Source of the DNA: Actinostola sp. cb2023 | Taxonomy: Eukaryota; Cnidaria; Anthozoa; Actiniaria; Actinostolidae | Assembly: GCA_033675265.1 (NCBI GenBank) | Contig: JAUJYZ010000119.1 | Span: forward strand, 124,001-188,000 | Direction: 5' to 3' | Length of the DNA: 64,000 nucleotides | Part shown: piece after piece, positions 1 through 58,080 of the stretch | Numbering within the stretch: the stretch's first letter is position 1 | Layout: each line of letters begins with the position of its first letter | Made by a program: the position numbers and the translations under genes | The notes under the pieces: model-generated | Seen by the model: only the letters and a program-made list of their open reading frames with translations | The model's database searches: none | Told to the model about the DNA's origin: nothing

Positions 1-1051
1 GGTTGTGCTTCCAATGTAACTTTTCAGGAATGTCTATTTTCTTGTACACTCTCATGTTAGTGACATTGGCTTTAGTAAGATTGGCATAGATCTCGTCTTC
101 TTGCCCTGGCGATGGCCACAGGTGGCCAATCACTCCTTGCTCGGCCATTTGGAACTTTGTAATATCAACAAAGTCACTCAGATAAATGGTTCTGGCTGAA
201 GACGTTTCAATCATACTGTGGTCAGAAACGATTATCACATTCATCTTGTCAAACAAATTTGCATTTTTGAGGCTTTGAGTTAAGTATCCCACTACGTCTT
301 TGTCTACTCGTTCGATGGCTTTTACAAAGTCGCCAGTGCTGATGCCATACGTGTGCCCTGTAGAGTCTGGTTCGTTGATATACAACGCCGAGAACTTCGG
401 TGGACGTTTCTGCTTGAGCCATCCAATGAGTTTATCAATGCGGTTCTTGAACGGTAGACTCTGGTTCGCAAAACAATGGATGTAGGGAGGCCATCCGGAA
501 CGAGTCTTATTCCGATAACGCGGGAGATCTTTATAATGACTGTTCAATGCTGTACAGTTCTGGAAACATGTAAGCTTCTCGTATAAACTCGGTTTTTCCT
601 TGTAGCTGAAATAACCAGGCCAATAGTGCACAGCAGAGCGGTAGCCTAACTTCTGCACTGTCAACCAAATCGGTTCAGCAGCTTCGTAAAACTTTGGATC
701 AAAGTTAGAACAATCGTACTGGAGGATGAACATTTCGTCATAAAGAGGGTCCCAGAAGTAGTTGGAAACGATTCCATGGCTCTCTGGGTACATTCCTGTT
801 AGGTAGGTTTGGTGCGTTGGCCATGTCTTGGTCGGTGTTACGGTCAGCATATAACTTGCTTTGACTCCATTATTTTCAATGTAATCTAGATTGGGTGTAT
901 TCGCTTTATTACCACCAGTGAACTGCCAACCAAGGCCATCAAGTGACACCAATAGCAATGGATGGTCAGCTACAGCTGACGCTGTCACCAGTAAAACCAG
1001 TCCAAAGAAAGGACGAAGTCTTCTAGACATAGTACTGGCGCCAAAAGCCAT
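1..1051 (-). CDS. Ectonucleotide pyrophosphatase/phosphodiesterase (ENPP) family, 5' part, 3' end off the window
   Basis: Secreted or membrane-bound zinc phosphodiesterase of the alkaline-phosphatase superfamily. One uninterrupted reading frame runs from ATG 1051-1049 to the left edge, about 350 residues without an intron; a second ATG at 1030-1028 could also serve. Residues 10-28 look like a signal peptide (basic RRLR, then a hydrophobic stretch ending ASAVA). Family landmarks in order: SLDG (first metal Asp, about residue 38), PTKTWPTH holding the probable nucleophile Thr76, TGMYPESHGIVSN, EPDSTGH (metal-binding Asp and His) and VSDHS (second metal pair). Family members usually read KTFPNH and DHG, so the W, T and S here are variants. 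Several N-x-S/T sites fit an extracellular protein. Which ENPP subtype, and the substrate (nucleotide or lipid), cannot be told from this fragment. Confidence 0.9.
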   Translation of the reverse strand, partial: MAFGASTMSRRLRPFFGLVLLVTASAVADHPLLLVSLDGLGWQFTGGNKANTPNLDYIENNGVKASYMLTVTPTKTWPTHQTYLTGMYPESHGIVSNYFWDPLYDEMFILQYDCSNFDPKFYEAAEPIWLTVQKLGYRSAVHYWPGYFSYKEKPSLYEKLTCFQNCTALNSHYKDLPRYRNKTRSGWPPYIHCFANQSLPFKNRIDKLIGWLKQKRPPKFSALYINEPDSTGHTYGISTGDFVKAIERVDKDVVGYLTQSLKNANLFDKMNVIIVSDHSMIETSSARTIYLSDFVDITKFQMAEQGVIGHLWPSPGQEDEIYANLTKANVTNMRVYKKIDIPEKLHWKHN

Positions 1052-13437: not shown

Positions 13438-16400
13438 ATGGCGTTTTTCCTGAGAAATTTTAAACGCATATGCAACCCTTCCTCTGCAACTTTGATTCCA
13501 GTAAGCAGACGAATTTGCTTATATTCTACAGGTTGGTTACATAGTACAAGATAAAATAACTTTGATCGTTGAAATATCTAAATATTTTTGACACTATTTT
13601 TGGCTGTACAACTTTTACATTTAAAAAAAAATTCCTTTTTCAAAACAAAATTAATTTTCAGAATATTTCAGCTATAACACCAGAAGATATACGACAGAGA
13701 CAATCACCAAGACAGACCTGCCTAAGCAGGCTTCACGCAAGAGCAAAGCGTCGAAAAAAGAACTCGAAAATGACAGTCACTCGAAAACGTCAACCAAGTC
13801 CAAGACCAAGGTCAAGGAAAAGAAAGTTGTCAAGGCCAGTAAGACAAAAAAGAACACAGACGAAAAGCTAACAGAAGCGAAGAATGTCAACAAGACAACG
13901 AAATTAAGAAACAAAGGTGTGACAAAGAAAGATAATAAACTACAAAATGCAACTAAGAGACCATCTGTGACAACGACATTGATAGACAAAAACAAAAAAG
14001 ACCCTCGATTACACGATGAAGTTCATCGTGGCAGTGAAAGCACTGTATATAACTCCGATGTAGTTGTTAAGTCGGAGATACTGACTGAAAATAATGGTGA
14101 AGCTACAGCTGTTACAACAAGAGAATATACTGAAGCAGAGGACGTGAGGAGTAATGACAATTCAGACTTCCTGTCAAACAAAGAGTTTGCAGTTGGTAGA
14201 GTCGGGATGAAGTACAGAGAAGGAACAATAGGTGCACGACTGTATGAAGTTAGTACTCTAGCTGAAATCAATGGATATCTCAGCTTAGGGCAGGTGAGTG
14301 TGTGTCCCGGGGGGGGGGGGGGACTCCCATATATAAAGTGGTTGGGATGCTCGTCGTACCAAAAGGGGTCCAGATCCGCGATTTGGTACCTCTTAGGGTG
14401 TCACAAATCTAAAAGGACCACAACTGACTAAGCCAGTACCTATTATGGTGTTTGTCAGTAAATAAGATACTCGAGATAAGATAATGACAGCCGGAATGAC
14501 AGTTGTAGCTTTTGTCACTTTAGAGTTGGTACCCTAATTTTAGGGGTAAACATTATTTGTTGCCATGCCCACCTGGACAAGACTCAGGTACCTTTTAGGG
14601 GTCATTTTCAAAATTTTCGACGGGCATCCCAAACACTTTAATTATGGGAGTCTCCCCTGGGGGTATGTGTACTGATCATACTTTATATAAAATATTATTA
14701 TTATAATGAAAGCATTATAATAGCAGGGCCCACAGAGCAAGCTTAAAAGTGGTGGGGCTAATTTCTTCCATACAAGGGTCACAATGACGATACCATTTTA
14801 TAAATTTCCTTAAAATTTTTACTACCTGTGGACAAAAAAGTGGTGGGGAGTATAGCTCCACCAGCCCCTCCCCTTCCGTGGGCCCTAATAGACCACTAAG
14901 GATACAATCTGACAGATCAGGTAAACTGACAAATGACTCACAATGCAGAATTCATTGATTGAGTAAAAGCCATGAGAATAAACTAAAGTGGAGAGAAAAT
15001 ATTAAACACAAGATTTCGGTACAAAAAAGGGGGAATGACTGTTATAGCTACGTAGTTGAGCCACCTACAGCAAGAGCCCTTTCTATAGACATGTACATTT
15101 GTACGTACTGTGATAGAGTTGTTTTAGTATGAGTGGGAAACCTATGGTACCGTGACACTCAAATGGCTTCCTTTCTGAACCAATCAAAAAGCGTACAGAT
15201 GCATCTCATCCAATCAAACTCTTTCAATACGGTAAGACGTGGTGCTGTGATGGTGCGATAACTTTCCCACTCATACGATTAAAACGACTCTATAAATACA
15301 CTTGGAGGTGTACAGTACTCAAGAATTGTATGTAGCACATGTACGTACCATCAAAGTGGTAGTTCTTCTGCCTTCCTTTTTCTTTTCTTTTCATATTCTC
15401 TCATCTTCTTTAACACAGGAATCCCAAGAGACTAAGAAATTAACCCCAAGTGTAAACACTGTGTGGACACTGTATTTTTATATATTTCTACTTGTATTTT
15501 TCTAGGTCAATGAAGCCCAGAAGCTGTTCAACAGGTACTTAAGGATTGGTAAAACTCTTGGCATCGCTTCATTCAATAAAATGCTACTGGGATGGGCGGA
15601 ACATGGTAACTTAATGAGCGTCAAGATGACATTTAATCTTCTCAAGTCAGATGGTCTCAAGCCTGATATTTCAACATACGCAGCACTGTTATTTGGCTAT
15701 GGGAGATTTGGCGAGACTGAAAAAGTGAAAGAAATAATGAAAGAAATGGAAGGAAATGGATTGAATCCAGAGCATATATTTTATAAGTGTTTGCTGACTG
15801 AGAATCAAGCGAAAGGAGTCATGCATGCATTACACCTAGTGGACCCTGACTTCAAGGCCACAGTGCCACCAGAATACCACAATACACACTACCCCTCACT
15901 AGTCAGACCTCTCTATGACAGCATGGCAGAGGGATTCAATGAAAAAGTAGTTGATGGTAGACTCAATAATGAGTTCAGTGAACATGAGTTACAAGTGTTA
16001 TTGGAGGAGCAATTATTGAGGGAGCTGTGTGGCGTGACGGTGATCAAATCAGTTGAACAAGTACAGGAACAAGACGAAGAGATGAAGAAGCTCAGGGGAA
16101 TATATGAAGAGTGGAGAGTGAAATGCAAGGCAGCTCTGATGAAAGTAATAGATGAAGAACTGCAAGAAATCAAAGGAGGAAAATGTAAGTTATTACACTT
16201 GTGGGGGAATGGCCTTTTACAGTGCAAATCGAAACACCGTGGGCACCCAGAAATAGTTCAGAAATCGTTTATTGTTCGTTGAACAATCAGAAATGACTCT
16301 CTAACTGCAAGAAGTTTATCTGACTGCAAATCAGTCGAACTTCTTGCAGTTAGAGAGTTGTTTCAGATTGTTCAATGAACGATAAACAATTTCTGAAACA

Positions 16401-19400
16401 TTTCTCAGTGCCCACGGTTTTTCGATTCGCACTGTTGGCCACTTGGTCAGAAATTTACCCAAGGCATGGTAGAAATGACACTTGTTTTGAATGCAAACGT
16501 ACTTGGAAGGTTTTGACAACTGGTGCACATGTTTTTCGGTTGGCCACTTAGGTTTTTACAGAAAACAATAGTTTTAGTGGCATTTATTAACTGGCCACTT
16601 AAAAGATGGTGGCTTAATAGGAGTTCAACTGTATCTCACATCCAGCTACAGTCGAACCTCTACTAATGACCACCTCCCCACAACGGCCACCTCTCTGTAA
16701 CGACCAGGGTGTTTTGTCCCAGGCACCAGCCTGCCCACACATTTACTTGTTTTTGAAACCTCACAATGGCCACCTCTACACAATGGCCACAAAAACTTGT
16801 CCCGAGGTGGCCGTTGTAGAGAGGTTCGACTGTAATTCTAATTGCAGAATTTTATCTATTGATGTATTTTTCTAGTCAAATCTCTCAGACCAAGATACGC
16901 TCCATTTCTTCAAACATTTGATGCAGAAGAATTAGCAGATCTCACCCTGGATCAAGTCATGTTTTACATCAAGGGTCAAGTGGAAGGGGTTCCACTGCAC
17001 AGTCTCAGTGGTGCAGTCGGGTCGGCACTTAACGCCAAGTATATTGTGAAACAAAGGGAAAAGGCTGGAGTATTGAAAAAGGTATAGTATACCGTATTTC
17101 CTCGATTAAGCGCCCCAGGCACTAATTTCAAATTTTGTGATCAAGGGGGTGCTTAAACAAGGGGGGCGCTTAATCGAGGAGGGACGCTTAATATAAAAAC
17201 ATGATTTGAACTCAGAAACATAACTTTAATAATACAGTGACTAACTACATAAAAGAACATGCTGTAACTTTGTGATAAAACGCAAGTTGTATGCCATATT
17301 CTGTAATAATTCTTACTGGCCATATTTTGTAGGGGAGGGGAGGGTGCTTAATCGAGGGGGGCATTTAATCGAGGGTGGGCACTTAATTGAGGAAATATGG
17401 TATATGTACATTATTTTGTATGTACTCTTGTCCTTACAATAGTTAATAACGACCCTGTGGCCGAGCCCATGATGCCTTGAGACATTGTAAAGTTAACGTA
17501 GATGTAGGCTTCTGATGAGAATTGATTTTGTTCTTTTTTAGATCAAGAATATTTATTCAGACTACTTTTCCTATGTCATGGATGAACAGCACAGTTCAAA
17601 GAAAATGGCACGTGACCGATGGGACGAGTTAGACCTTGGTCGGCCATATGAAGCTTCTTTAAGACAAGACATCTCAGACTGGCCGTGGGCAACTAAACTA
17701 TTGGTAAAACAGTCATGTATTTCCACTCGTGCGTCATTTTACCATATAAGGGCAAGAGAATACACAAAATATGCCAGCGTATTACACAGTAGCTCGCTCA
17801 CGAGTGCAAAAAAAGACATAGCAAAAATTGCTCAAAAACTTCAGGAAACAAAGAAACAAATTCAATTGTGGAATAATAAACCCCTTATTTGATGGTTTAA
17901 CAGATAATACTTGTGGACATTTTACTCATTGCTTGTATTTTTCCTCATACTATGGGCTCAGAAAAATACTACGCAACTCGTAGAATATCTGCACATATTA
18001 CATGTATCTGTCAAACCATCAAATAAGCTGTATGTATTTCTAGACATACACCCATCTCTCTAGATGCATTAAGGTACCAGGGGACCTTCGTGACCAATGT
18101 TCACTGTAAGCCGCGTAGCGCACCAAATACTCGTCCAACATGTATAAAAGTATACATTTTCTTAAAGCTGAATAAATGCAGATTCTAAATATGCTGGAGA
18201 TTATTTCCTATTTTGTACATATTTTTTGTTATTGCACATTTTAGAAAATTCGACCGGCCTTGTTCAAAGAGAGTTTTGCACGCGGGAATTCTATCGATTT
18301 CTAAGCGGAAAGTGCCATTGTAATGAGCACACTTTGTTCTAAAAAACCGTATCTCCGACTTTTGATACGTTGCCTCGTTTAAAAGTTATTTGATGATTTA
18401 TGTGTAAATCGCTTAAAAACACATTAATGAACTTTGACAACAAATATCTCCTCAACAAAAGCGTTTATCGGAAATCGGAGACACAGTTTTTTAGAACAAA
18501 GTGTGCTCATTACAATGGCACTTTCCTTAAAAATCTTGAATTTTCCGCGTGCAAAATTCTCTTTGAACAAGACCGGTCGAACTAAAATGTGCAATAACAA
18601 AAAATATTTGCGGAAATAATCTCCGCATATTTAGAATCTGCATTTACAGCTTTGCCGATACTTTTATACCTCACGAGTGGTTAGCGCGATGCAGCTTTAT
18701 GAACTGCACAAGGTCCCCTGGTACCTTCAGTGCAACATTGCCGAACACCTCACTAAGCCAGGTACAGAGTATGTGGGATGACGTTAATTATTGTAATGTA
18801 ATCTGTTCAAAGTCCATTTCTTTAACTAATCACATGACATGTTGTTGATTTCCAGTGTGGCTGCACACTAATTGACTTCCTCCTGCAGTCAATAACAATC
18901 AATGCCAACCTCTTCAACAATAAACCCGAGTCCTTACTGGCTGCGTTCTACCATACTTACGAGTTTAGAGAACGGCGCAAAATTGGTGTCATTAAGCCCC
19001 ACCCAGTTGTCTGTAAACTATTTAAGGGATACTTAGCAGACCACGGTAGTATTGTCATGGCGACCACGTCAGTACCAATGTTGGTCCCTCCGAGGCCATG
19101 GAGGGACGTTAGAGATGGGGCTTTTCTGCTACAACCAGGTAGAACCATTATTATTAATGTCCCCCTTGATACTTCGGTGTTACGAGTCTCAATAGTTTAA
19201 TTATTTTAATGTGGTTTTAGTCCAACTGATGCGTACAAACCAAGAGGACGACAGCAAGCAGGATCGTCTATTAGAAGACAAATGCAGTCGCAACCAGCTT
19301 TGTGCTGTTTTTGATGCTTTGAACTCTCTTGGCGCATGCGCATGGAAGACCAACGACCGTATTCTTGACCTGGCCGTCCATTATTTTAACAATGGCGGCA

Positions 19401-20976
19401 GTGATGACCTGGCAATTCCTGGACCAGTGGTACAACCAGACACAAATGCATTTGATAAGTAAGTGGTTCGCTGTGGTTTAGCTGCTTGGGATACCTGTGT
19501 CATTAGAGTTGATCCAGATCCACCACAGGTATCCCAGGCTATGTGTAGTAAAAAAGCGCTTGTGGTCAAAAGCTGAAATCTCCCTTGGAATTGAAGGGCT
19601 CCCTGCAAAAACAGAGTAAGTGACTTGTGATCACAATCCAAATTCTCCTTTGAAAATCAAAGAAACTCAAGGAGAATTTAGATTTTGATCAGAGGTCACT
19701 TACGTTGCTAAAGGAGAATTTCCACTTTGATTGGAGATCAAATTACGTTGGTTGTCTTTGCACATTTTATCACATTTTTAAATGTGATAAGTTCAATGTA
19801 CTAAATTCACATTTCTTTCCTTGTCCTTTGTTTCCTTACCATTTTGCCCCTCTTGTCAACTTTCTACGATACAGAACTGGGCTGCCCCCAGAAGAACGTA
19901 TGAAGATATTACAAGAACATCGTAGAGCTCGTAAAATAGCCCGCGAACAGTACAGTCTGCGGATGTCAGCACTTTACAAGCTGTCAGTTGCTAATCACTT
20001 TAGGAATAACGTGTTCTGGTTGCCTCTAAATATGGATTTTCGTGGACGAGTCTACCCCATTCCTCCTCACTGCTGTCACGTGGGTACGTCAATGTGTTTA
20101 CTTTGGGGGGAGGGGGCAGGTGAGGGAGGGTCGCTTACTAATAAACCTACCTACCTACCTACCTACCTACTAGAGACAAAACCACATTGTGTAACTGAAA
20201 TATCAGGGAAAATGGGACTTTTACAAAGTGGTCGTTTTTTGGACGTAATCATTGATCGCTCATAGAGGTTCGTTGTTAATTCAGGAGATGACCTTAATCG
20301 TGGCATGCTACAGTTCAATAAGGGTGTCGCTCTTGGTGAACATGGTTTGCGATGGCTAAAGATCCACCTGACCAACCTTCATGGAGCCAAGAAGAAGGCT
20401 TCATTGAATGAACGTGCAGAGTACGCAGATGAAATGATGGACGAGATTTTAGACTCGGCTGATGATCCCCTGATGGTGAGTGTTCATTTTTGGAGCTATT
20501 TTGATAAAAGTGAAACAAACAGGCATATTCAAAAAAAACAAAAAAACATTTTATTTAATATAACAGACAGACAGACAAGCAAACACGTTTGAGGTCAATT
20601 TTAGAGTCGGGCCTTCCACAGAAAGCCTGACTAGTAAACAGACGATCACCAACCACCACCAGGGGAACAACGTCATTAAAAACAGACAGACAGACTGACT
20701 GACTGACTGACTGACTGACTGACTGACTGACTGACTGACTGACTGACTGACTGACTGACTGACTGAACAACTGACTGACTGACTGACTGACTGACTGACT
20801 GACTGACTGACTGACTGACTGACTGACTGACTGACTGACTGACTGACTGACTGACTGACTGACTGACTGACTGACTGACTGACTGACTGACTGACTGACT
20901 GACTGACTGACTGACTGACTGACTGACTGACTGACAGACAGACTGACTGACTGACTGACTGACTGACTGACTGACT

Positions 20977-21017
<41 letters not shown>

Positions 21018-24000
21018 TTATTTGTCAATTCCTTATATGGTAACAAAATTCCATATTTGGTACTCACAATTCTCCATATTTGGTAACAAATCTCCATATT
21101 TGGTAACTTAAAGTCCCTATTTGTAAGTGGTTACTTTTTCACTAGTTCCCAGTTTACTTGCACTTCGACGCTGTCTTTTTGTCTAATAACATAACTGTGT
21201 ATCAGGGTCGACAATGGTGGATGTCCGCTGATGAGCCGTGGCAAACACTAGCTACATGTATAGAAATATCCAATGCTGTTCGTAGCGATGACCACACCCA
21301 GTACGTATCCCATCACCCAGTGCACCAAGACGGCTCGTGTAATGGACTGCAACACTACGCTGCGCTCGGTCATGACAGTTATGGCGCTAAACAGGTCAAT
21401 CTAATGCCTGCAGACCGTCCACAGGATGTCTATATGGAAGTGGCCAAACTGGTAGAGATGACTAGAGTCAAAGATGCTGAAAAAGGTTTGAATATTGTTG
21501 ATTGCTTGGTTTCAATCAGCTGTTAAAGTGCATATTTTCTAAAAATATTGATAAAAGAACAACTGGGTTTATATTGAAAGGATAGCATAACATATCTGGC
21601 TATGAATACCGCCATTTTCAATAGGAAATTTGCGCGTGCGCAGACGATTTTTGTTGGTATCGTTATACATGGCTCTAGACCAATCAATGTCTGTGTTTCA
21701 GACTGTGGTATAAATACCCATACACCGAATCAAAATATGCCGACCAATTTGAATAACTATTGTTCTGGACTGACTAGCCTCTCATTCATGTGAAAACGCT
21801 TTTGTGTTTCCACATGAACACGAGGTTAGTCAGTCCAGAACAATGGCAGTTCAAATTGGATGCCATCTTTCGATTCGGTGTATACCCATACTTTATTGAT
21901 TTTTGCTCACAAAGGTCACAAAATCGCACAGCATCTTGAAGGGAAAGTGAAACGCAAGGTCATCAAGCAGACGGTCATGACCATCGTGTATGGAGTCACG
22001 TTCGTTGGTGGTCGACTGCAGATTGAACGTCAGCTGAAAGACCTTGATATCGACGAACGACTCCTGTTTGACTCATCGGCTTATCTTGTACACAAGGTGT
22101 TTGCCAGTATTGGACAGCTCTTTAGCAGTGCAAAGGCTATACAGGTAAATAGACTGAACAGTTCCTCTCTTCCGGCCTCCCCCCAGACTCAGTCGAACGA
22201 GAGATTTCTAAAAACTCGTCTTCACTGAGTCTGGAGGGAAAAGGAGGGACTGTTCGCAGACTAGTCATCAGTTCTATTGGTTTAATCTTTGTTTGTTTTG
22301 TTCAGGACTGGCTTGCCATTGCTGCCACTCACATAGCCTACACAGGTCACATGGTCGATTGGTACACACCGCTGTCCCTATATGTCTGTCAGCCTTACTG
22401 TAAGCGAACTGTCAAAGTTATTAGGACCAAACTACAAGGTATCGAGATACCTGCCAAAGGGCTTGCCTCGTCACCACCGGATTCCAGGAAGCAGCGAGGA
22501 GCTTTCCCTCCAAACTTCGTACATTCTCTTGATTCTACACATATGATGTTGAGCGCATTGTATTCCCAAAGGGCAGGAATAACCTTCACTTCTGTGCATG
22601 ATAGCTTTTGGACGCATGCTGCAAGCATCGATGTCATGAACAAGGTACCTTACTGTGCGATGCAAACAAGGGTGTACTGATGGTGTGAGAGGGTGTACTG
22701 ATGGAGGGAGAGGGTGTACTGATGGAGGGAGAGGGTGTACTGATGGAGGGAGAGGGTGTACTGATGGAGGGAGAGGGAGGGTGTACTGATGGAGGGAGAG
22801 GGTGTACTGATGGAGGGAGGGTGTACTGATGGAGGGAGGGTGTACTGATGGAGGGAGGGTGTACTGATGGAGGGAGGGAGGGTGTACTGATGGAGGGAGA
22901 GGGTGTACTGATGGAGGGAGAGGGTGTACTGATGGATGGGGAGGGTGTACTGATGGAGGGAGAGGGTGTACTGATGGAGGGAGAGGGTGTACTGATGGAG
23001 GGAGAGGGTGTACTGATGGAGGGAGAGGGTGTACTGATGGAGGGAGAGGGTGTACTGATGGAGGGGAGGGTGTACTGATGGAGGAGAGAGGGTGTACTGA
23101 TGGAGGGAGAGGGTGTACTGATGGAGGGAGAGGGTGTACTGATGGAGGGAGAGGGTGTACTGATGGAGGGAGGGTGTACTGATGGAGGGGAGGGTGTACT
23201 GATGGAGGGAGAGGGTGTACTGATGGAGGGAGGGTGTACTGATGGAGGGAGAGGGTGTACTGATGGAGGGAGGGTGTACTGATGGAGGGAGAGGGTGTAC
23301 TGATGGAGGGAGAGGGTGTACTGATGGAGGGGAGAGGGTGTACTGATGGAGGGGAGAGGGTGTACTGATGGAGGGAGAGGGTGTACTGATGGAGGGAGAG
23401 GGTGTACTGATGGAGGGATGGATGGGGAGAGGGTGTACTGATGGAGGGAGGGAGGTAGGGTGTACTGATGGAGGGAGGGTGTACTGATGGAGGGAGAGTG
23501 TAATGGATGGAGGGAGAGTGTACTGATGGAGGGGAGGGTGTACTGATGGAGGGAGGGTGTACTGATGGAGGGAGGGTGTACTGATGATGTGTACTGATGG
23601 GAGGGTGTACTGATGGAGGGAGGGTGTACTGATGGAGGGAGAGGGTGTACTGATGGAGGGAGGGTGGATGGGAGGGAGGGTGTACTGATGGAGGGAGAGG
23701 GTGTACTGATGGAGGGAGAGGTGTACTGATGGAGGGAGGGTGTACTGATGGAGGGAGAGGGTGTACTGATGGAGGGAGAGGGTGTACTGATGGATGGAGG
23801 AGAGGGTGTACTGATGGAGGGGAGGGTGTACTGATGGGGGATGGAGGGGGTGTACTGATGGAGGGAGAGGGGTGTACTGATGGAGGAGGGTGTACTGATG
23901 GAGGGAGGGTGTACTGATGGAGGAGGGAGAGGGTGTACTGATGGATGGGGAGAGGGTGTACTGATGGAGGGAGGGTGTACTGATGGAGGGAGAGGGTGTA

Positions 24001-25922
24001 CTGATGGAGGGGAGGGTGTACTGATGGGAGGGAGAGTGTACTGATGGAGGGAGGGTGTACTGATGGAGGGAGGGTGTACTGATGGAGGGAGAGGGTGTAC
24101 TGATGGAGGGAGAGGGTGTACTGATGGAGGGAGGGAGGGTGTACTGATGGAGGGAGAGGGTGTACTGATGGAGGGAGGGGGATGTACTGATGGAGGGAGA
24201 GGGTGTACTGATGGAGGGAGGGTGTACTGATGGAGGGAGAGGGTGTACTGATGGAGGGAGAGGGTGTACTGATGGAGGGAGAGGGTGTACTGATGGAGGG
24301 AGAGGTGTACTGATGGAGGGAGAGGGTGTACTGATGGAGGGAGAGGGTGTACTGATGGAGGGAGAGGGTGTACTGATGGAGGGAGAGGGTGTGTGTAGGG
24401 TGATGGAGGGAGAGGGTGTACTGATGGAGGGGAGAGGGTGTACTGATGGAGGGAGAGGGTGTAATGAGGGGATGGATGGGGGAATGTATGCTGATGGAGA
24501 GTGTAATAATGGAGGAAGAGGGAGTATTAATGGAGGGAGAGGGTGTACTGATGGGAGGGAGAGCGTGTACTAATGAGAGAGAAGGTGTAACTGATGGATG
24601 GGGAGGGTGTACTAATGGAGGGAGAGGGAGGATCAATGGAGGTAGAGGGTGTGATGGATGGAGAGGTTCACTGACGAAAGTACGGGAAAGTGTACATTTA
24701 TGAGCGAATATAGAAGATTCATTGATGTAGAGAGAATGTTCTGGAGAGACTGGGCAGACATGTACGAAGCTTCAGTGATCCTTGGAGGGCAGTTTGCAGA
24801 TGAACTTAATATAGAGAAGTTCCATTCATTTAAATATTATTTGTTTTATAACAGATTTGTCGTGAGCAGTTTGTAGCACTACATTCCCAACCAAACCAAT
24901 CCTAGGAGACCTACAGAACCATTTCGAGAAAAACTACGGTGGACTCGAGTAAGTATCGTGCTTATTAGACTATGGTACCACCCTCAGTAAATGCCAGGCC
25001 TCGTCCGTGTAGCGTCTCCGATTTCTTTGGAGTCTCTACTTACTGTGAAGAAGAAAAAAAGAAAAAAAGAAAAAAAAACCTTACTGTGAAGACGCGCGGT
25101 GCAACATTGCGCGCAATCAGTAGAGTCGTTTTTGTATGAGTGGGAAACCTACGGTACGGAGTTACGGTCACGGTACGGAATTGAAGACATTGTATTCAAC
25201 CAATCACAGCGCGCAAAATCATCGCTCAACCAATCAGAATGCTTGGATACGGCATGATGATGGCGCGATACGGTCACGATTACGGTACGGCACGAATCAT
25301 ACCGTAACTACTTCCCACTCATACGGAAAACGACTCTAGTTACGGTACACGGTTCGTACCGTGCCGTGCCGTGTCCAAGCATTCTGATTGGTTGAGCAGT
25401 ATCAACATAATTAACGTTCAATATGGAATATCATCCGCCATTTTGCCGTTTTACCGTCGGCTCAAATCTTTTTGTTTGTGACGTCGTGTATGGGGAATAG
25501 TAAAATCCGCTCACAACATTCTCTCGGGTACAAGAAAATACAATGTACTTATAATTACTCTACATTATGACTGCACTTTCCCTTGGGATAGGTGACGTCA
25601 GACATGGGGAATAATTACTGAAGTGAGCCGTGCTCAATTCAGCGGTAATCCATGTATTTTTTCAATTCAAACTCAAGTTTCTTCTCCATTAAAATAAAAA
25701 CAATTTGAAATTCATTTAGAAAATGTCTGTACACAACATTCTCTTTGTTTTTATTTAAAGATAAATTTAGGCTTCAGTTCTCCTGTAATAAACTTGGCCA
25801 CAACTATCATGTTGCCAGCAATATTGCGCGCAAGGGCGTGAAAGTTTACTTTGTTCGTTGGACAGATGAAGAGCTACTTCGATGGAAATGCTGTCATTAA
25901 ACCGTTATTATTATTATTATTA

Positions 25923-36187: not shown

Positions 36188-36612
36188 TTTTATGTTTCCA
36201 ACTTGAAGGAAAGAAACGCTCCTCTCACATATGTCACACACGCTGTGATTAAAGATTAAAGCCCATACTAGTTACTCGCTAGTTTAAATTCTCTCTCCTT
36301 TTGCTTCGTTTGCTTCGCGATAAATACGCTAAAGTTACACCATACCAGAAGTACATAATAGACACAGGAGATACATACAGTACAACAGAGGAACCTAGCT
36401 ACACGAATATTGTACTGTATGCATATCTCCTGTGTCTATTATGTACTTCTGGTATGGTGTAACTTTAGCGTATTTATCGCGAAGCAAACGAAGCAAAGGA
36501 GCTAGAGAGAATTTAAACTAGCGAGTAACTAGTATGGGCTTTAATCTTTAATCACAGCGTGTGTGACATATGTGAGAGGAGCGTTTCTTTCCTTCAAGTT
36601 GGAAACATAAAA
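36188..36612. repeat. Near-perfect 425-bp palindrome
   Basis: Arms of about 195 bp (36188-36383 and 36414-36612) are almost exact reverse complements, for example CAACTTGAAGGAAAGAAACG against CGTTTCTTTCCTTCAAGTTG and CAGAAGTACATAATAGACAC against GTGTCTATTATGTACTTCTG. The spacer is about 30 bp. The left-hand sequence of the gene at 36548-37411 ends inside the right arm. Confidence 0.9.
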
Positions 36613-37411
36613 GTGTTATACTTAAAACTCTCTCTTTGATATAGAAAAATTCTATTTTTAACAGCATTAACACAATAAAAAATATAAACAGAATGTAAAC
36701 AAGGATTGACTTCATTTTCGCCTCAGATTTGTGTTCTTCTTGATGCGATTTCAAAGTTGTTTTCTCACCTTTGGATTTGTCCATGTTGGAATCACACTTC
36801 TGAATCAGTACATCTGGCTTCAAGTTGTGGTATACATGCTTGGCTAGGCAGTACTCAGTTGAGTTCACATTTAAGTCAACATTAGAGTTCATTTGTATTA
36901 TAGTTCTTGAGTTCATTTGATTTGCTTTTGAGCTCGAGTTCAATTGATTACCTTTTGACTTTGAGTTCAATTGATTTGCTTTTGATGAGTTCATGTAAAG
37001 GCCCTGTCGAAAACGCTCAACATCTTTTAGAGTGGGCCCACACGAATCGGCGTATGCGTTTGTATGTGAGAGCGTATTTAAGAGGAACTGATGGATGGCT
37101 TGCCTTGGATACAACATAATTTCTCTTCTGCACAGGTCAACTGCTTCTTTCACTTCTAGTCGTCGAATACGATCACTTAGCACTATCAGTATCTGCCCTG
37201 AGCGAACAATACTTCTATTTTACATGTTTGTGGCGCCATGAATATGCAACCTCAAGTATATAAATAGGCTATTAAAACTACTTTGGCATGAACCCAAATT
37301 TCGGACATTGACCTTGTTTACCTTTGCTTTGATGAAGTTTTGAAGTACGATTTCTACGATTTCTTTTCCTTCTGAATTTTTCAAACGTCGAATCGAATAA
37401 ACATCCATCAT
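36548..37411 (-). CDS. Unrecognised two-exon gene, product with C-terminal membrane helix
   Basis: Not recognised. Exon 1 37411-37322 (30 codons, MMDVYSIRRLKNSEG...; donor AAG|GTAAAC), exon 2 37192-36548 (acceptor GGGCAG, phase 0), 244 residues. Residues 1-95 are mixed and probably helical (IRRLEVKEAVDLCRREIML). Next is a low-complexity segment of about 60 residues with repeats of the form (M/L)NS..K.NQ, then a charged stretch, then one hydrophobic helix of about 22 residues (ILVYILFIFFIVLMLL) followed by basic residues. With no signal peptide, a tail anchor is plausible. The last 22 or so codons lie in the palindrome, so the true end may differ. A 97%-like inverted copy with broken exons is at 57094-58080. 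Hairpins of the form ACTCGGGC...GCCCGAGT stand upstream of both copies, suggesting that the gene moved as part of an element. Confidence 0.5.
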
Positions 37412-45415: not shown

Positions 45416-46552
45416 TATGTAAAACAGTGAAAGATTAATTGTTGTGACAAAATCCAAAGTCTTTCCTTTTCATTTATTTGCCTGTCTTTTTTGCTGTGTT
45501 CTGATTGGCTGTTTCATGTTGTTCAAATTGGTACTGATTACAGACTCACGTCTGATATCGATGCTGTTGCATGGGAACCAATCAGATTGCAGAATTTTCT
45601 AGTGATTTCAAAATGGCTATACACCGAATCGAAATATGGCGTCCAATTTGAACTGCCATTGTTCTGGACTGACTAGCCTCGTGTTCATGTGGAAACACAA
45701 AAGCGTTTTCACATGAATGAGTAGCCTGTGAACAGGATGAGAAGCTGGTCCAGAACAATAGTTATTCAAATAGGTCGCCATATTTTGATTCGGTGTATAA
45801 TTACATAGATATTGGCTCAACAAGTGAAGAGGAACTCATGATTGAATTCGTACTGAGTTCCGCTTTCGTTTTCATTTTATCCATCGAATACGTACAGTCT
45901 GAAGCTTGATGGAGATTTGTATGAGCCATTTTCACAGCCTTCAACTGACTCAATTTCTAATCAAAGTAAGGCTGGCTGTCCATTCCAAACGCGTTCCATG
46001 CAGGTCTGTGGGAATGGCGAAAGAGTTTTAAAGACAGTCACAAGACCACAATCAGTGTTGATCTCGAAGGAATTCTACTCAGAGCGTAAAATTTCGCAAG
46101 GTCAGTCGAAACGGCTGAATGTACCGATACCTCAAACTCTCGATAGCCAGATGAACTGCATCATGTTTTCTGTACTCTAGAGTATGTAACAGGTGAAATA
46201 TATTCTGATTCTAACATTCTGGATATAATAACAATAACAAACCCAGTCGAGGGGAAATTGTGAATGGATCTTCGTATATTTTTGACAATTTATTATTGAA
46301 ATTCGTTATCCACATTGAACTCAAGAATAAAATTAAAAGGCCATTGATCACAGTATTTCAACATGTGGCCCAGTAAATTCAACGCGATGATGGCAAACTT
46401 GGCAATGATAGCGGCGATGACATCAGAATATATTAATTACGACAAGAGGAATTGAGGCAAATCAGCATCATCAAGCTAGGTCCTGCGGCTTGCCTTACCC
46501 TGAAAGAACTATGCCATGATTGTCATCATTATATAAACTCCTTTTTGACACA
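45416..46552. other. 5' flank of the ankyrin-kinase-KEN gene
   Basis: Contains the MITE copy at 45611-45800 and an open stretch at 45917-46180 ending at a stop, whose product I do not recognise and do not call. Between 46190 and 46552 the sequence is AT-rich with no clear TATA box or Inr; the promoter of the downstream gene should lie here. Confidence 0.4.
45611..45800. mobile_element. MITE with CACCGAATC termini, second copy
   Basis: Begins CACCGAATCGAAATATGG and ends CATATTTTGATTCGGTG with TATA at both sides. Inner arms GTTCTGGACTGACTAGCCTC / GAGAAGCTGGTCCAGAAC. Sister of 21718-21897. Confidence 0.75.
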
Positions 46553-49500
46553 ATGGATCATTTAGCTGGTAAACTAAGCGAAATGGATTTGTTTGTGGCT
46601 GTGCGGGATGGCAATGAACAAGATGTACATGCATTGATTGCATCTGGTGTTGATGTTAATATAACTGATAAACACGGCAAATCACCCTTGTTTTATGCTG
46701 TACATTTGAACGACAACTTCGGAACTGCCTACGCCCTTATCAAAGCGCTTCGTGATGTTAATAGAATTGATGAAGAAGGCAAGACCATTTTATTTTATGC
46801 CGTGAAATATGGCAATGAAGCGGTTACGGGCGCATTGATTGATGCAGGAGCTGATGTGAACATAACCGATAATCAAGGCCAAACGGCTCTGTTCTATGCT
46901 GTCCGATACCACAACAAAGCTACCATGTCTGCTAGATCTGATGCTACTGTTGTCAACTCAACTGACCAAGAGCAAATGGCTTCAAGTTTGTTTGTTGAAG
47001 TTAAATATCACAACAACGAAATCATTAACGCACTAATCAATGCTGGGGCAGATGTGAACATGACTGATGCAAAAGGCCAAACTGCATTAGTTTATGCTAT
47101 TCAGCACAACAAGGATGTAAATGCACAGACATTGATTGATGCTGGGGCAGACGTGAATATACCTGATTCAAGAGGCCAAACTGCTTTAATTCACGCTGTA
47201 CTAGAATCGAAGGAAGGCATTGCTCGAGCACTGGTTAATGCTGGTGCAAATACTGACGTACAAGATGAATATGGAAAAACACCTTTATCTTATGCTATTG
47301 AATATCACAATGAAAACATGTTTCGTACGCTTCTTGATGTTGGCGTTGACGTAAATCAAAGAGATGAAAAGAACCAAACGGCTTTATTTCATGTTGCTGT
47401 CAGTTATGACGTTGAGGGTACACGGGCTTTGATTGATGCTGGCGCTGATGTCAACGCAATTGACAATCAGGGCCAAACTGCATTGTTTTCTTCTATGCCT
47501 GTTCAGAATGCATATCGGGATGGCACCGAAGAAGTGGCACTCCTGTTGATTAACGCTGGTACTGATGTCAACATTGTTGATAAACACGGCAAAACGGCTT
47601 TATTTTATGCTGTTAGACGACCCAGTGAAACAGTCGCATATAATCTGATTGACAGCAACGCCATCATCGACGCAAGAGATGCTTGGGGTAGAACGCCTCT
47701 TTTTTACGCTGCCACAAGATCGTTTTCGTTGGCTCGTGTTCTTCTTACTAGAGGTGCAAACATGTTCACAGACAACTACAACGTTGATATCTTGTCGTTT
47801 TATGTTGAATACTGCATAACGAACGGAAGAACATCGGACATGAATGAAATGTTTCAACTTCTTCAACAACATGGAGCTCAAAGACAAACTGTAGTTATGT
47901 CGCTTTTAAACACGGTATTTCATCAGGTCTTAAAACACTACAGAATTCAATCAAATCACAAGTCATGGTACCAAGAATCAATTTTAGAGGCCTTACATCT
48001 TGCAATGCAATACACTGCAGAGGATAACGATGGAAGAAACGAAGCAATTGGAATGGTTTCCTTGAAAATGCGTGACCTTGTTCATCAGAGCAGTACGAAT
48101 CTACTCTTTGATTTGCTATCGTTACTAATTAAACTTGGTGTAAATACAAACAGCGCTGACTCATGTGGAAACACTGCATTTCATTACGCAGTGTGCCTGC
48201 CCATGTTCGGCGTGCAACAGGAGGCTGTTCTCAACATCTGCTCGGCCCTCCTGGAAGCGTCTGGGGCAAGATTGAATTCCGTAAATCGTGCCAAAGAAAC
48301 TCCATTGTTGCATTGTTTGTCGCAATTCTCTCAAAGACTGGCTCACATGAAACAGTCGGTCAAACATGATCACGAACAGTGGATCCCTGTAGACATTTGC
48401 CGATTTTTGCTAGCGAGAGATATTTCAGTTGTCGGTGAAGTATCACGTCAGGGAGAATCAGTCTTTCATGTCATTATCAAGATTTTGCAACGAGGATTAA
48501 GTTCAACGCATAAGCCAAAGAGACAATGCGTAATACATCAGGCAATGGAACTACTGGAATTGTTTTCCAACGCAAATAACACAATTAAGGGAAAGACAGC
48601 TTCGAAAAGTAACACCAAACTTCAATCACCACTTCACCTTTGGGCATCGCTTACTCTACCCTCGAGCACTAACACAGCTCACGAGTATACTAGCCTCAAC
48701 TATATCACAGAGCAATACACGTTTGAGCAATTGTTGCACACAATTCTAACCCATTTATTAAACTCTGGAGCAAGAAAGAATGCACGAAATGAGAATGATG
48801 AAACGCCTTTGCACTTGTGCAGAACTCGATGTGCTGTCAAGCTCTTGATAGATGCTGGTGCTAATATCAACGATGTTGATTCAGCACAACGAACACCTCT
48901 ACTCGCGGTCGCCAGAAGGTACGAGTCAAGCCGCAACAAGCGACACACAAAGGCAGTAGTCGATGGGCCTGATCGTTTGTACCCAGATGTTTTAGAGGAG
49001 CCGCTAACGTTTTGGAAAAATTAATCCCAACTCGGCCTTGATCTATGGACATGCGACGTAGATGGAGAATCGGTGTTGAGCATGCTGATTAAAGCAAAGT
49101 CCTACAATCTTTCGAAAGCATTGATTGAACTCGCTTGTGAGGAACAGTATTCCAACGTGCTTGTGTCACTTCTGAATGCTATCTGTAAGGATAAATCTCT
49201 AAGTACCCACTGGAAAGCCAATCTTGTCGAAATGATTTTAAGTTCTAGAAAAACTAAGATCGATGTAACTACAGCATTAACATTGTGTTGTCGGAACGTG
49301 AGAAAACTTTACGTTTCGAAAAAACGAAATAGTGATGAAACATCCACTTCCATTCACTGGCAAATTGCAGAGCGGCTTCTTCTGTATGGAACCTGCAATC
49401 CAGAAAATCCTGATTTCTTGAGGGAGTCGTGCTTGGACATTCCAGGATCGTGTCCACCACTCAAAGAACTTCTCACAAAACCAATAGACATTGGTAAAGC

Positions 49501-50845
49501 CCCAAAACTCATTCCATGGACTCGGTGCTCAGAGAAGCACGAAGACAAACTGACCAAAGTTGCCAGACGCCAGGAATGCAAGATGGTCGAGTCGTATTGG
49601 TATCATCAGGAAGAGGTAGCCAGAGGCGCATTTGGAGAAGTGTATGCAGCATTAAACGAACAGGACGGAAGAGAAGTAGCTATTAAACGAACCGTTAAAT
49701 CCCTCATGAAGCGTCCTGAAACCAAACGAGAGATCAACAACCTCATTTCTCTCGCAGACTGTGGACAAGTCGTGCGTTATCTCTCTTTCTTCGAGGATGA
49801 ACACTTTTCTTACATAGTCTTAGAACTAATGGAGGGCAGTCTCGATGATAATTTTCTCAAAAAGAAGCCACTTAGCACACGTGAAAAGATTGGTCTTTGT
49901 AAAGATGTTATAATGGGATTGACGTATTTGCATGAGCGAGAAGTTTTGCATCGCGATCTCAAGCCAAGCAATATTCTGTACAAAAACGACCCTAAGCTGT
50001 GTCTGAAGTTAGCCGACTTTGGGCTGAGCCGTTGTATCAACACTGTTTCTACCACCGTGTATGGAACCAACGCTGGTACAAGATGCTGGATAGCTCCAGA
50101 GGTCATCAAGTCCGCAATTCCCATCCTTTCCATGTCATCTGACATATTTTCATGTGGACTTGTCCTCCATTATATTCTATCAGGACAAAGACATCCATTT
50201 TCGCCAGTTAAAGGAACGCCTTTAGAACAAATCACTGCAAAAGAACTCAATGTTATCAACAACAACATGGAAGGATGGGACGAGTCAATTCCACCTGAAG
50301 CCACCCACCTTGTGAAAAAGATGCTCGAAAGCGATGACAAGAAGAGAGCGACTGCAGCAGAGGCGCTGGTTCATCCAATGTTCTGGTCAGACAAGAAAAA
50401 GATGGAACTTCTCAACGCTGTTGGAAATCAGCCAGAGTTCGAATGTCCACATGCTAAAAGGAAACCCCCTTTGACGTTCGTCGAGACGGATTTGCAGTCA
50501 AACTTTCCTGCAATAGTCAAGCATCCCACATGGGATGATCCAGGATATGTGAACATGCATACAGTTTTCACCGAAATGTCTAAACCCATAATTTCATCGA
50601 AGGGTAAACCAACACCATCGAGAAAGTATGATACCAAGTCAGTGGTCGAGTTGGTGAGGTTTGTACGAAACTCCTGGCAACACATCTCGGATGGCACCCG
50701 GCCAACGCTTATTAGAGAACTCATCATCAAACACTTTACTTTCTTGGATGAATTTCCGAACCTTGTCATCGAAGTCTTCAAAGCTGTAACCACTCATGGA
50801 TGGGCTAAATCAAGAGGAGAAATCCAGTGCGCCGTGGATGAGTAA
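46553..50845 (+). CDS. RNase L-like protein: ankyrin repeats, protein kinase, KEN ribonuclease domain; interrupted by one in-frame stop
   Basis: Single exon, 4,293 bases in one frame from ATG 46553 (ACAATGG context). Codons 1-823 encode about twelve ankyrin repeats (to about 47780; pattern DxxGQTALxYAV...LIDAGADVN), a less regular helical part, and more ankyrin-like units (about 48140-48930). TAA at 49022-49024 interrupts; the same frame resumes at once (LGLDLWTCDVDGES). Next a kinase: glycine loop GAFGEV and AIK at about 49624-49690, HRDLKPSN at 49949, DFG at 50015, APE near 50095. After HPMFW (KEN entry) come VGN and a KEN domain holding RNSWQH at 50666-50683, which supplies the Arg, Asn and His of the nuclease site, then FPNLVI. 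Known: RNase L and IRE1 share kinase-KEN, and only RNase L has ankyrins. Inferred: dimerising endoribonuclease in the cytosol (no signal or membrane helix). Whether it senses 2-5A is unknown. The stop may be an allele, an error or a real split. Confidence 0.85.
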
Positions 50846-50858
50846 TAAGGTAATAATA

Positions 50859-51045
50859 GAGTCGTTTTCGTATGAGTGGGAAGTAGTTACAGTACGGTTC
50901 GTGCCGTGACCGTCCCGCGCCAAGCATTCTGATTGGTTGAGAAATGATTTCGCGCGCTGTGATTGACGTGGAATAGAATGGCTTCGATTAAGTACCGTGA
51001 CCGTAACTCCGTACCGTAGGTTTCCCACTCATACGAAAACAACTC
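50859..51045. mobile_element. GAGTCG MITE family, full copy in the 3' flank of the RNase L-like gene
   Basis: Ends GAGTCGTTTTCGTATGAGTG and CACTCATACGAAAACAACTC, flanked by TA in AATAATA repeats. Starts 14 bases after the stop codon, so it probably forms the 3' UTR. Confidence 0.8.
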
Positions 51046-51237
51046 TAATAATAATACAGTATTATGGACAATGTAACCGAAGAGGTTTCCTTTATTGAGG
51101 GATTCTCTGGCACCCAGTGTAGCGTGTCAAGGAAATGGCCGAGATAGTCGAGGTAGCTGCATGAATAATGTGTTCGCTTAGGGACATTTTTTGTTAAAAA
51201 CAAGCGGAATTTGAATACTTCAACAGGAATAAACGCG

Positions 51238-52265
51238 CGCTCTTCAAACCTTGGAAATTCCTTGGAAATGTCCAAAACCTTGGAAACATTCTTTGGAAAT
51301 GTCCAAAACCTTGGAAACATTCTTTGGAAATGTCCAAAACCTTGGAAATTCTTTGGAAATGTCCAAAACCTTGGAAATTCTTTGGAAATGTCCAAAACCT
51401 TGGAAACATTCTTTGGAAATGTCCAAAACCTTGGAAACATTCTTTGGAAATGTCCAAAACCTTGGAAATTCGTTGGAAATGTCCAAAACCTTGGAAATTT
51501 TTTGGAAATGTCCAAAACCTTGGAAATTCTTTGGAAATGTCCAAAACCTTGGAAATTCTTTGGAAATATCCAAAACCTTGGAAATTCTTTGGAAATGTCC
51601 AAAACCTTGGAAATTCGTTGGAAATGTCCAAAACCTTGGAAATTCGTTGGAAATGTCCAAAACCTTGGAAATTCGTTGGAAATGTCCAAAACCTTGGAAA
51701 TTCTTTGGAAATGTCCAAAACCTTGGAAATTCTTTGGAAATGTCCAAAACTTGGAAATTCTTTGGAAATGTCCAAAACCTTGGAAATTCGCTGGAAATGT
51801 CCAAAACCTTGGAAATTCGTTGGAAATGTCCAAAACCTTGGAAATTCGTTGGAAATGTCCAAAACCTTGGAAATTCGTTGGAAATGTCCAAAACCTTGGA
51901 AATTCGTTGGAAATGTCCAAAACGTACCTTGGAAATTCTTTGGAAATGTCCAAAACCTTGGAAATTCGTTGGAAATGTCCAAAACCTTGGAAACTCGTTG
52001 GAAATGTCCAAAACCTTGGAAATTCGTTGGAAATGTCCAAAACCTTGGAAATTCGTTGGAAATGTCCAAAACCTTGGAAATTCGTTGGAAATGTCCAAAA
52101 CCTTGGAAATTCTTTGGAAATGTCCAAAACCTTGGAAATTCTTTGGAAATGTCCAAAACCTTGGAAATTCTTTGGAAATGTCCAAAACCTTGGAAATTCT
52201 TTGGAAATGTCCAAAAAAATGTCTAAAACTTTGGAAATTGAAAATTTCCAACGAATTTCCAGTGG
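51238..52265. repeat. 1-kb minisatellite, 28-29-bp unit TTGGAAATGTCCAAAACC
   Basis: About 34 units of TTGGAAATGTCCAAAACCTT then GGAAATTCG or GGAAATTCT. The unit is partly self-complementary (TTGGAAAT/ATTTCCAA). Starts CTCTTCAAACCTTGG and ends TTTCCAGTGGTTTGAAGAAG, suggesting inverted ends. Open frames of 300 or more codons in several frames are a by-product of the repeat. Confidence 0.92.
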
Positions 52266-57093: not shown

Positions 57094-58080
57094 ATGATGG
57101 ATGTTTATTCGATTCGACGTTTGAAAAATTCAGAAGGAAAAGAAATCGTAGAAATCATACTTCAAAACTTTATCAATTAAAGCAAAGCTAAACAAGCTCA
57201 ATGTCCGAAATTTGGGGTCATGCCAAAGTTGTTTTAATAGCCTATTTATATACTTGCACAATACAAAAGCGCATTAATTTTAGAACCGCGGCACAGCGCT
57301 ATTTAAAGCAGAATTTCCACGCTGAAAACAAGTCAGTGAACGGCAAAAATACAATCAAAATCAAAACGTCATTAGAGATTAGGGATCTGTTGAAGAAGAA
57401 GACGCTCAATGAGCGTATAGTCGGGTATTTAATATGACAATGAGAGTTGCGTGACGAGAAACAATTTATGTCGATGACTCATAAAGATTCGTGTACGTCT
57501 GTATTACATATTTAAACGTACTTGAGGTCACTTGATGTTGCATATTGATATCGCCACAAACATGTCAAATAGTTATTGTTCGCTCAGGGCAGATACTGAG
57601 ATATTGCTAAGTCATCGTATTCGACGACTAGAAGTGAAAGAAGCAGTTGACCTGTGCAGAAGTGAAATTATGTTGTATTCAAGGCAAGCCATCCATCCGT
57701 TCCTCTTAAATACGCTCTCACATACAAACGCGTACGCCGATTCGTGTGGGCCCACTCTAAAAGATGTTGAGCGTTTTCGACAGGGCCTTTACATGAACTC
57801 ATCAAAAGGAAATCAATTGAACTCAAAGTCCAAAGGTAATCAAATGAACTCAAGCTCAAAAGCAAATCAAATGAACTCAAGAACTATAATACAAATGAAC
57901 TCTAATGTTGACTTAAATGTGAACTCAACTGAGTACTGCCTAGCCAAGCATGTATACCACAACTTGAAGCCAGATGTACTGATTCAGAAGTGTGATTTCA
58001 ACATGGACAAATCTCCTTGTCATAAGCCCGAGTGTACGCTCATTGAGCGTCTTGTTTTTATTATAAAATATAAACTATGA
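57094..58080 (+). pseudogene. Broken inverted copy of the 37-kb two-exon gene
   Basis: Exon 1 starts at ATG 57094 (MMDVYSIRRLKNSEG) but a change near its end gives a TAA at 57178-57180 and the donor reads AGCTAA instead of AGGTAA. The intron carries about 260 extra bases, including GACGCTCAATGAGCG at 57397. Exon 2 starts after GGGCAG at about 57588 and has an indel that puts a stop five codons in (ATACTGAGATATTGCTAA), after which the original frame is open from about 57610 to 58080. It keeps the RRLEVKEAVDLCR and MNSS..NQ regions but lacks the membrane helix, because the sequence switches to the GCTCATTGAGCGTC end at 58038-58052. Nucleotide identity to the 37-kb copy looks like about 95% or more in exon 2. 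Confidence 0.65.

Follow-up and report, generated by a model that had tools for sequence, protein, structure and literature searches.

Ankyrin repeats, a protein kinase domain and a KEN endoribonuclease domain, the layout of vertebrate RNase L, are combined in a gene of Actinostola sp. cb2023 (Anthozoa, Actiniaria), which occupies positions 46553-50845 (+) of a 64,000-nucleotide stretch of the genome (GenBank assembly GCA_033675265.1, contig JAUJYZ010000119.1, positions 124,001 to 188,000 of the forward strand; the whole stretch is called the window hereafter). By its alignments and its position in the trees, the gene belongs to a many-membered anthozoan family of RNase L-like genes. We hold it moderately probable that the window contains a disrupted or mis-sequenced copy of such a gene, and that the family shares one ankyrin-kinase-KEN ancestor with vertebrate RNase L, which would have existed before cnidarians and bilaterians split.

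Reading frame and domain architecture

The frame comprises 823 codons, a TAA at 49022-49024, and 606 further codons up to the terminal TAA. Pfam detected Ank_2 (E 3.9e-81, 268 bits, nine stretches) and Ank_4 (12 stretches) in the first part, and in the second part a kinase (residues 195-453) followed, as in IRE1, by the KEN domain (PF06479, E 1.6e-8, 35.1 bits against a cut-off of 23.3), whose absence from a domain search an initial annotation, made by a model from the letters alone, had named as one of the cases against its reading. Ankyrins, kinase and KEN stand in this order in one register, as that annotation had described, although the unbroken frame and intact gene which it presented did not hold, the TAA at 49022 having gone unmentioned. 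A chance frame is excluded, since one stop is seen in 1430 codons where about 86 would be expected in random sequence of the same composition, and since the similarity to homologues extends from the ankyrins through to the C-terminal end. Reading of the translation gave about 11 canonical ankyrin repeats up to residue 410 and degenerate repeats beyond. No membrane helix is evident by hydropathy (best 19-residue value 1.5, inside the kinase, against 2.4 at residue 437 of the mollusc IRE1 P0241), and no lumenal sensor of IRE1 was found with Pfam, ankyrins standing in its place; the initial annotation had noted both absences. The start at ATG 46553 is presumed, the alternative being the next in-frame ATG at 46586. 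Because TATATAAA (46530-46537) lies only 15 bases upstream of ATG 46553, ATG 46586 may be the true start. Coordinates are collected in Table 1.

Table 1. Features of the ankyrin-kinase-KEN gene in the window.
Feature	Positions	Strand	Basis
Ankyrin-rich N-terminal half	46553..49021	+	823 codons; Pfam Ank_2, Ank_4
Internal in-frame stop TAA	49022..49024	+	homologue alignments run through it, 12/13
Helical, ankyrin-like linker from ankyrins to kinase	49025..49606	+	AlphaFold model residues 1-180 helical; RNase L structural alignments begin at model residue 1
Protein kinase domain, active-type motifs	49607..50383	+	Pkinase E 3.5e-54; kinase motif table
KEN endoribonuclease module (HPMFW, VGN, Y535, R548-N549, H553)	50372..50842	+	PF06479 match 50576-50800; fold match
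RNSWQH, KEN catalytic R-N-x-x-x-H	50666..50683	+	translation; alignment conservation
Terminal stop TAA	50843..50845	+	reading frame

Internal stop codon

When the 13 best-scoring homologue proteins (P0001-P0013) were aligned to the window by tblastn, the alignments obtained were single ones that began in the ankyrin region, ran straight through the TAA and reached the C terminus. Twelve of them place a residue opposite the stop codon without a gap, and P0006 starts just past it. The TAA, sole internal stop of the frame, lies within a conserved stretch (EEPLTFWKN*SQLGLDLW in the window, EDPTTFWKTVIDMGFDLW in P0001). The in-register alignment of the homologues at this codon points to a single-base nonsense change or to an erroneous base, not to an intron or a frameshift. 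An intron over the stop was ruled out by the flanking residues, which the homologues hold in register, and a frameshift pair near it (VLEKLI is readable by eye in another frame) by their match to the annotated frame on both sides. Judged by these alignments, the window copy is disrupted or mis-sequenced, either a recently broken gene or one with a wrong base. That it is a recently dead and functionless paralogue of an expanded family has, in our estimate, about even chances and would be compatible with the preferred explanation for the family as a whole. The position of the TAA, in a stretch where homologues stay in register, speaks for a pseudogene, but no other internal stop has accumulated, the catalytic motifs are kept, and an assembly or sequencing error would look alike.

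The anthozoan family

An organism name is attached to 15 of the 73 homologues P0001-P0073, and all 15 are Anthozoa (Actinostola, Actinia, Exaiptasia, Paramuricea, Dendronephthya and Desmophyllum), in agreement with the initial annotation of an RNase L-type architecture outside the vertebrates; the remaining 58 are, from their place in the tree, presumably anthozoan as well. Unlike RNase L, the family is represented by several rows per species (Actinia five, Actinostola four, Exaiptasia three). Ankyrins, kinase and KEN are listed together in 24 of the 73, while many other rows look like truncated predictions. Identity of the window gene to family members reaches 60%. In the kinase-KEN tree the 50 family rows included form one group (support 100/94), within which the window gene belongs to a subgroup of six (96/84). 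Dendronephthya LOC114530987, Actinostola QZH41_004794 and Desmophyllum OS493_000180 have the same domains and linker as the window gene and, in contrast to it, are unbroken. Within the window no second copy was detected, as none of 120 tblastn hits (P0001-P0080, E 1e-3) starts outside 46000-51000. Database names of family members include IRE1-like, TNNI3K-like, myosin light chain kinase A-like and uncharacterised.

Kinase and KEN residues

The kinase of the window gene retains the active-type motifs also found in IRE1, namely the VAIK lysine (49685-49687), HRDLKPSN (from 49949) and DFG (from 50015), whereas the pseudokinase of RNase L has HQD and DFD, the latter in 114 of the best 120 of 129 RNase L matches. 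HRD-type and DFG motifs occur together in 64 of 74 sequences, the window included. In the subclade of P0045, P0055 and P0059 (100/100) the kinase catalytic residues are lost, in parallel to RNase L, and the KEN site is kept, which suggests that the kinase need not phosphorylate.

Catalysis by KEN is ascribed to an arginine, a polar residue next to it and a histidine (PMC3710099, available sections). These correspond to R548, N549 and H553 of the window gene (numbered from the second part); across an alignment of 50 sequences N549 and H553 never vary, and R548 and Y535 hardly do. RNSWQH, HPMFW, VGN, FVRN..HI and FPNLVIEVF were all recovered from the translation as the initial annotation had quoted them. 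The AlphaFold model of the 606-residue second part matches the folds of both IRE1 and RNase L as far as residue 606, and its structural alignment to RNase L spans the whole model. The structures 2rio and 3fbv are here taken to be yeast IRE1.

Window gene and RNase L have in common the order of domains, the lack of a membrane helix, R-N-x-x-x-H, the signatures VGN and F-x-RN, and a joint group in the trees, although identity amounts to 20-21% (two RNase L rows of the 50-sequence alignment). The window gene has about 11 canonical ankyrin repeats as compared to nine in RNase L, a longer linker, and no equivalents of W60 and F126 that could be seen. From IRE1 (ERN1/ERN2) it differs in its ankyrins, in GN with F-x-RN where IRE1 has SD with A-x-RN, and in a shorter loop before FPNL. 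By its motifs and layout the gene is not RNase L proper, whose pseudokinase and 2-5A (2',5'-oligoadenylate) residues it lacks, nor is it IRE1, as sensor and membrane helix are missing.

Ankyrin-kinase-KEN proteins also occur in carp, Garra, Onychostoma and Sinocyclocheilus, which we take to be cyprinid from their species names. They show the same plan, an active-type kinase and LGN with F-x-RN, but 26-27% identity to the window gene and fewer ankyrins. In the databases these rows (P0074-P0078, P0080) are uncharacterised or, in one case, named ppk4-like, and for P0080 no KEN is listed.

Ankyrin repeats and 2-5A

Among the residues through which RNase L binds 2-5A are W60 and K89 in repeat 2 and others in repeats 4 and 9, some of these residues mattering less in mouse (PMC5927464, available sections). 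Pattern-based scans miss repeats (four were listed for human RNase L, and F126 was missed), and the window repeats were thus also read by eye. At the position resembling W60/F126, ten of the 11 canonical repeats have K, Q or R and one a small residue; none has an aromatic, the single Y in the pattern scans (residue 712) lying outside them. The K89 equivalent was judged by eye only. As the stacking position is never aromatic in the canonical repeats, 2-5A is unsupported as ligand of the window copy, and so is a link to the 2-5A pathway, which the initial annotation had named as that of RNase L. A pocket of different make-up in these ankyrins is possible. Family members P0041, P0042 and P0064 do have W at the W60-like position, which is presumably a common ankyrin variant and no sign of a 2-5A pocket.

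Phylogenetic analyses

Kinase-KEN trees contained RNase L, the cyprinid proteins, anthozoans, IRE1 of yeast, molluscs, scorpion, sea urchin and vertebrates, and nameless rows. For the first tree, with human and yeast as the only IRE1, 29 of 91 aligned rows were left out (fragments, rows with no readable KEN, near duplicates). The second included 21 family rows, among them the window. In a third tree of 42 rows P0066, P0236, P0266, P0291 and P0343 were also omitted, the badly cut P0343 having reached a branch length of 10 in the second tree and prevented IRE1 from forming one side of a branch. RNase L rows came from the best 120 of 129 matches, those named being mammalian. Among the best 120 of 1743 matches to an IRE1 probe (molluscs, arachnids, sea urchin, vertebrates, nameless rows) none was named as cnidarian IRE1; the trees held no row known as such, and the test of a second fusion is incomplete in this respect.

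A branch with support of 100/100 in the 42-row tree separated IRE1 from anthozoans, RNase L and cyprinids; the arrangement was the same in the first tree and, but for P0343, in the second. The cyprinid proteins grouped with RNase L (99/92 and 96/93 in the first two trees, 92/83 in the 42-row tree). With yeast as root, the trees favour one lineage of ankyrin-kinase-KEN proteins next to animal IRE1. Approximately unbiased (AU) tests on the 42-row tree rejected RNase L and cyprinids with animal IRE1 (p 8.8e-5) or with vertebrate IRE1 (p 0.005), and anthozoans with animal IRE1 (p 4.2e-5). Cyprinids with anthozoans (p 0.37) and RNase L with anthozoans (p 0.07) were not rejected, which leaves the branching inside the ankyrin-kinase-KEN lineage open. 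In quick trees the main result remained when RNase L was left out (AU p 0.0096, 0.0036, 0.030) and for the kinase alone (p 0.005, 0.004), while KEN alone did not reject (p 0.08).

The KEN signatures point in the same direction. GN after HPxFW and F two residues before RNxxxH occur in RNase L, cyprinids and most family rows, whereas IRE1 has SD and A; the IRE1 list was found with a probe itself bearing SD and A, and the yeast chain bears both too. With VGN and F-V-RN, the window gene sides with RNase L, as the initial annotation had stated for the flanks of its KEN domain, and SD replaces GN in at least two of 74 family sequences.

Several observations weigh against a single origin. When the cyprinids were left out, the placement of RNase L was not resolved (AU p 0.36, 0.24, 0.42; quick tree). 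The AU p-values flatter the claim, as the groups were picked with the first tree already known and RNase L sits on a branch of about two changes per site; long branches may, moreover, attract each other. For the window model the structural Z is higher to IRE1 than to RNase L. Exclusive consensus columns (kinase/KEN) number 30/11 for anthozoans and IRE1, 12/7 for anthozoans and RNase L, and 15/12 for RNase L and IRE1. Cyprinids share 18 such kinase columns with anthozoans and 16 with IRE1, and ten and nine in KEN. The column counts would fit a fast-diverging RNase L, without proving so; taken in full and together with the open branching inside the lineage, they speak slightly against one origin.

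The structural Z, the column counts shared with IRE1, the placement of RNase L without cyprinids and the active-type kinase motifs speak for a rival account, in which cnidarians would have fused ankyrins a second time with a kinase-KEN of IRE1 descent, the plan being convergent and the role stress-induced RNA decay. Such a second fusion is opposed by the AU tests with cyprinids, those without RNase L and those on the kinase alone, and by the signatures common to RNase L and the family, and we regard it as rather unlikely. Of the two alternatives in the initial annotation, the early shared origin is hence the one favoured by the kinase and KEN tree it had proposed, which sets anthozoans with RNase L apart from IRE1; this is not final, given the long branches and a placement that depends on the cyprinid rows. 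That the window holds two genes, one for ankyrins alone and one further downstream for kinase and KEN (e.g., from ATG 49082), is highly improbable, for although the stop parts two long open frames, a single protein spans the junction gap-free in 12 of 13 homologues.

Possible function and significance

A mechanism can be modelled on RNase L and IRE1. By analogy, intact family members would be soluble cytosolic receptors whose ankyrin solenoid senses a ligand. Their nucleotide-bound kinases would pair back-to-back as a dimerisation platform and bring together two KEN domains, forming a metal-independent endoribonuclease for single-stranded RNA, and the cutting of RNA would bring translation to a halt when a cell is infected or stressed; the most likely role is antiviral or stress RNA decay.

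In a 2018 survey RNaseL scored no hit in Acropora digitifera, Nematostella vectensis and Orbicella faveolata, all of which possess OAS, and the pathway was concluded to be absent from lower Metazoa (PMC6307210). RNase L and OAS1 were named among antiviral-gene homologues in a section on poly(I:C) in Nematostella (PMC8476169, 2021), both were reported absent in Aplysia (PMC9334734), and in a further paper RNase L comes up a single time, for vertebrates, and OAS1 in connection with immune cells of anemones (PMC13319465). Kinase-KEN proteins were said to have ankyrins 'in some', with cnidarians not named for that plan (PMC3710099). All five sources are cited for their available sections. Among the matches listed in a search without most subscription journals, no paper dealt with the anthozoan ankyrin-kinase-KEN family as such. 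A many-membered anthozoan family with the plan of RNase L, its KEN site and its KEN signatures puts the conclusion of absence, as worded in the available part of PMC6307210, in doubt. Its members are evident candidates for the effector role, and the family provides named, testable candidates for an interferon-independent arm of RNA decay, including a subclade with kinase catalysis lost. More speculatively, and on our estimate improbably, it could be the effector still missing for OAS or cGAS-like enzymes of cnidarians, in the form of a ribonuclease gated by nucleotides and older than interferon and than the cnidarian-bilaterian split, with many paralogues tuned to different oligonucleotide messengers and RNase L as one pseudokinase survivor.

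Other features of the window

Five bases past the stop codon of the gene begins an inverted repeat (50851-51053) with 32-nt arms, 91% complementary and 139 nt apart, and TAATAATA at both outer ends, which resembles a small element of the miniature inverted-repeat transposable element (MITE) type. Just downstream, a tandem array of about 33 copies of a 29-bp unit (51246-52216, 96% matches) leaves a number of long frames open on both strands. A second array, of about 96 copies of a 21-bp unit (22669-24666), is strongly G-skewed (GC skew 0.58 at 22001-24000). Two inverted copies of one open frame, 36551-37219 (-) and 57526-58077 (+), are 82% identical over 166 residues and had no Pfam match above cut-off; they probably represent a repeat element or duplicated gene fragment. 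Ten further open frames in the window were scanned with Pfam, and three of them had clear matches. PPR repeats followed by a piece of DNA-dependent RNA polymerase (RNA_pol, PF00940) at 15506-20589 (+) are probably exons of a mitochondrial RNA polymerase gene, and a type I phosphodiesterase/nucleotide pyrophosphatase (PF01663, E 4.7e-64) at 2-1051 (-) is cut by the window edge.
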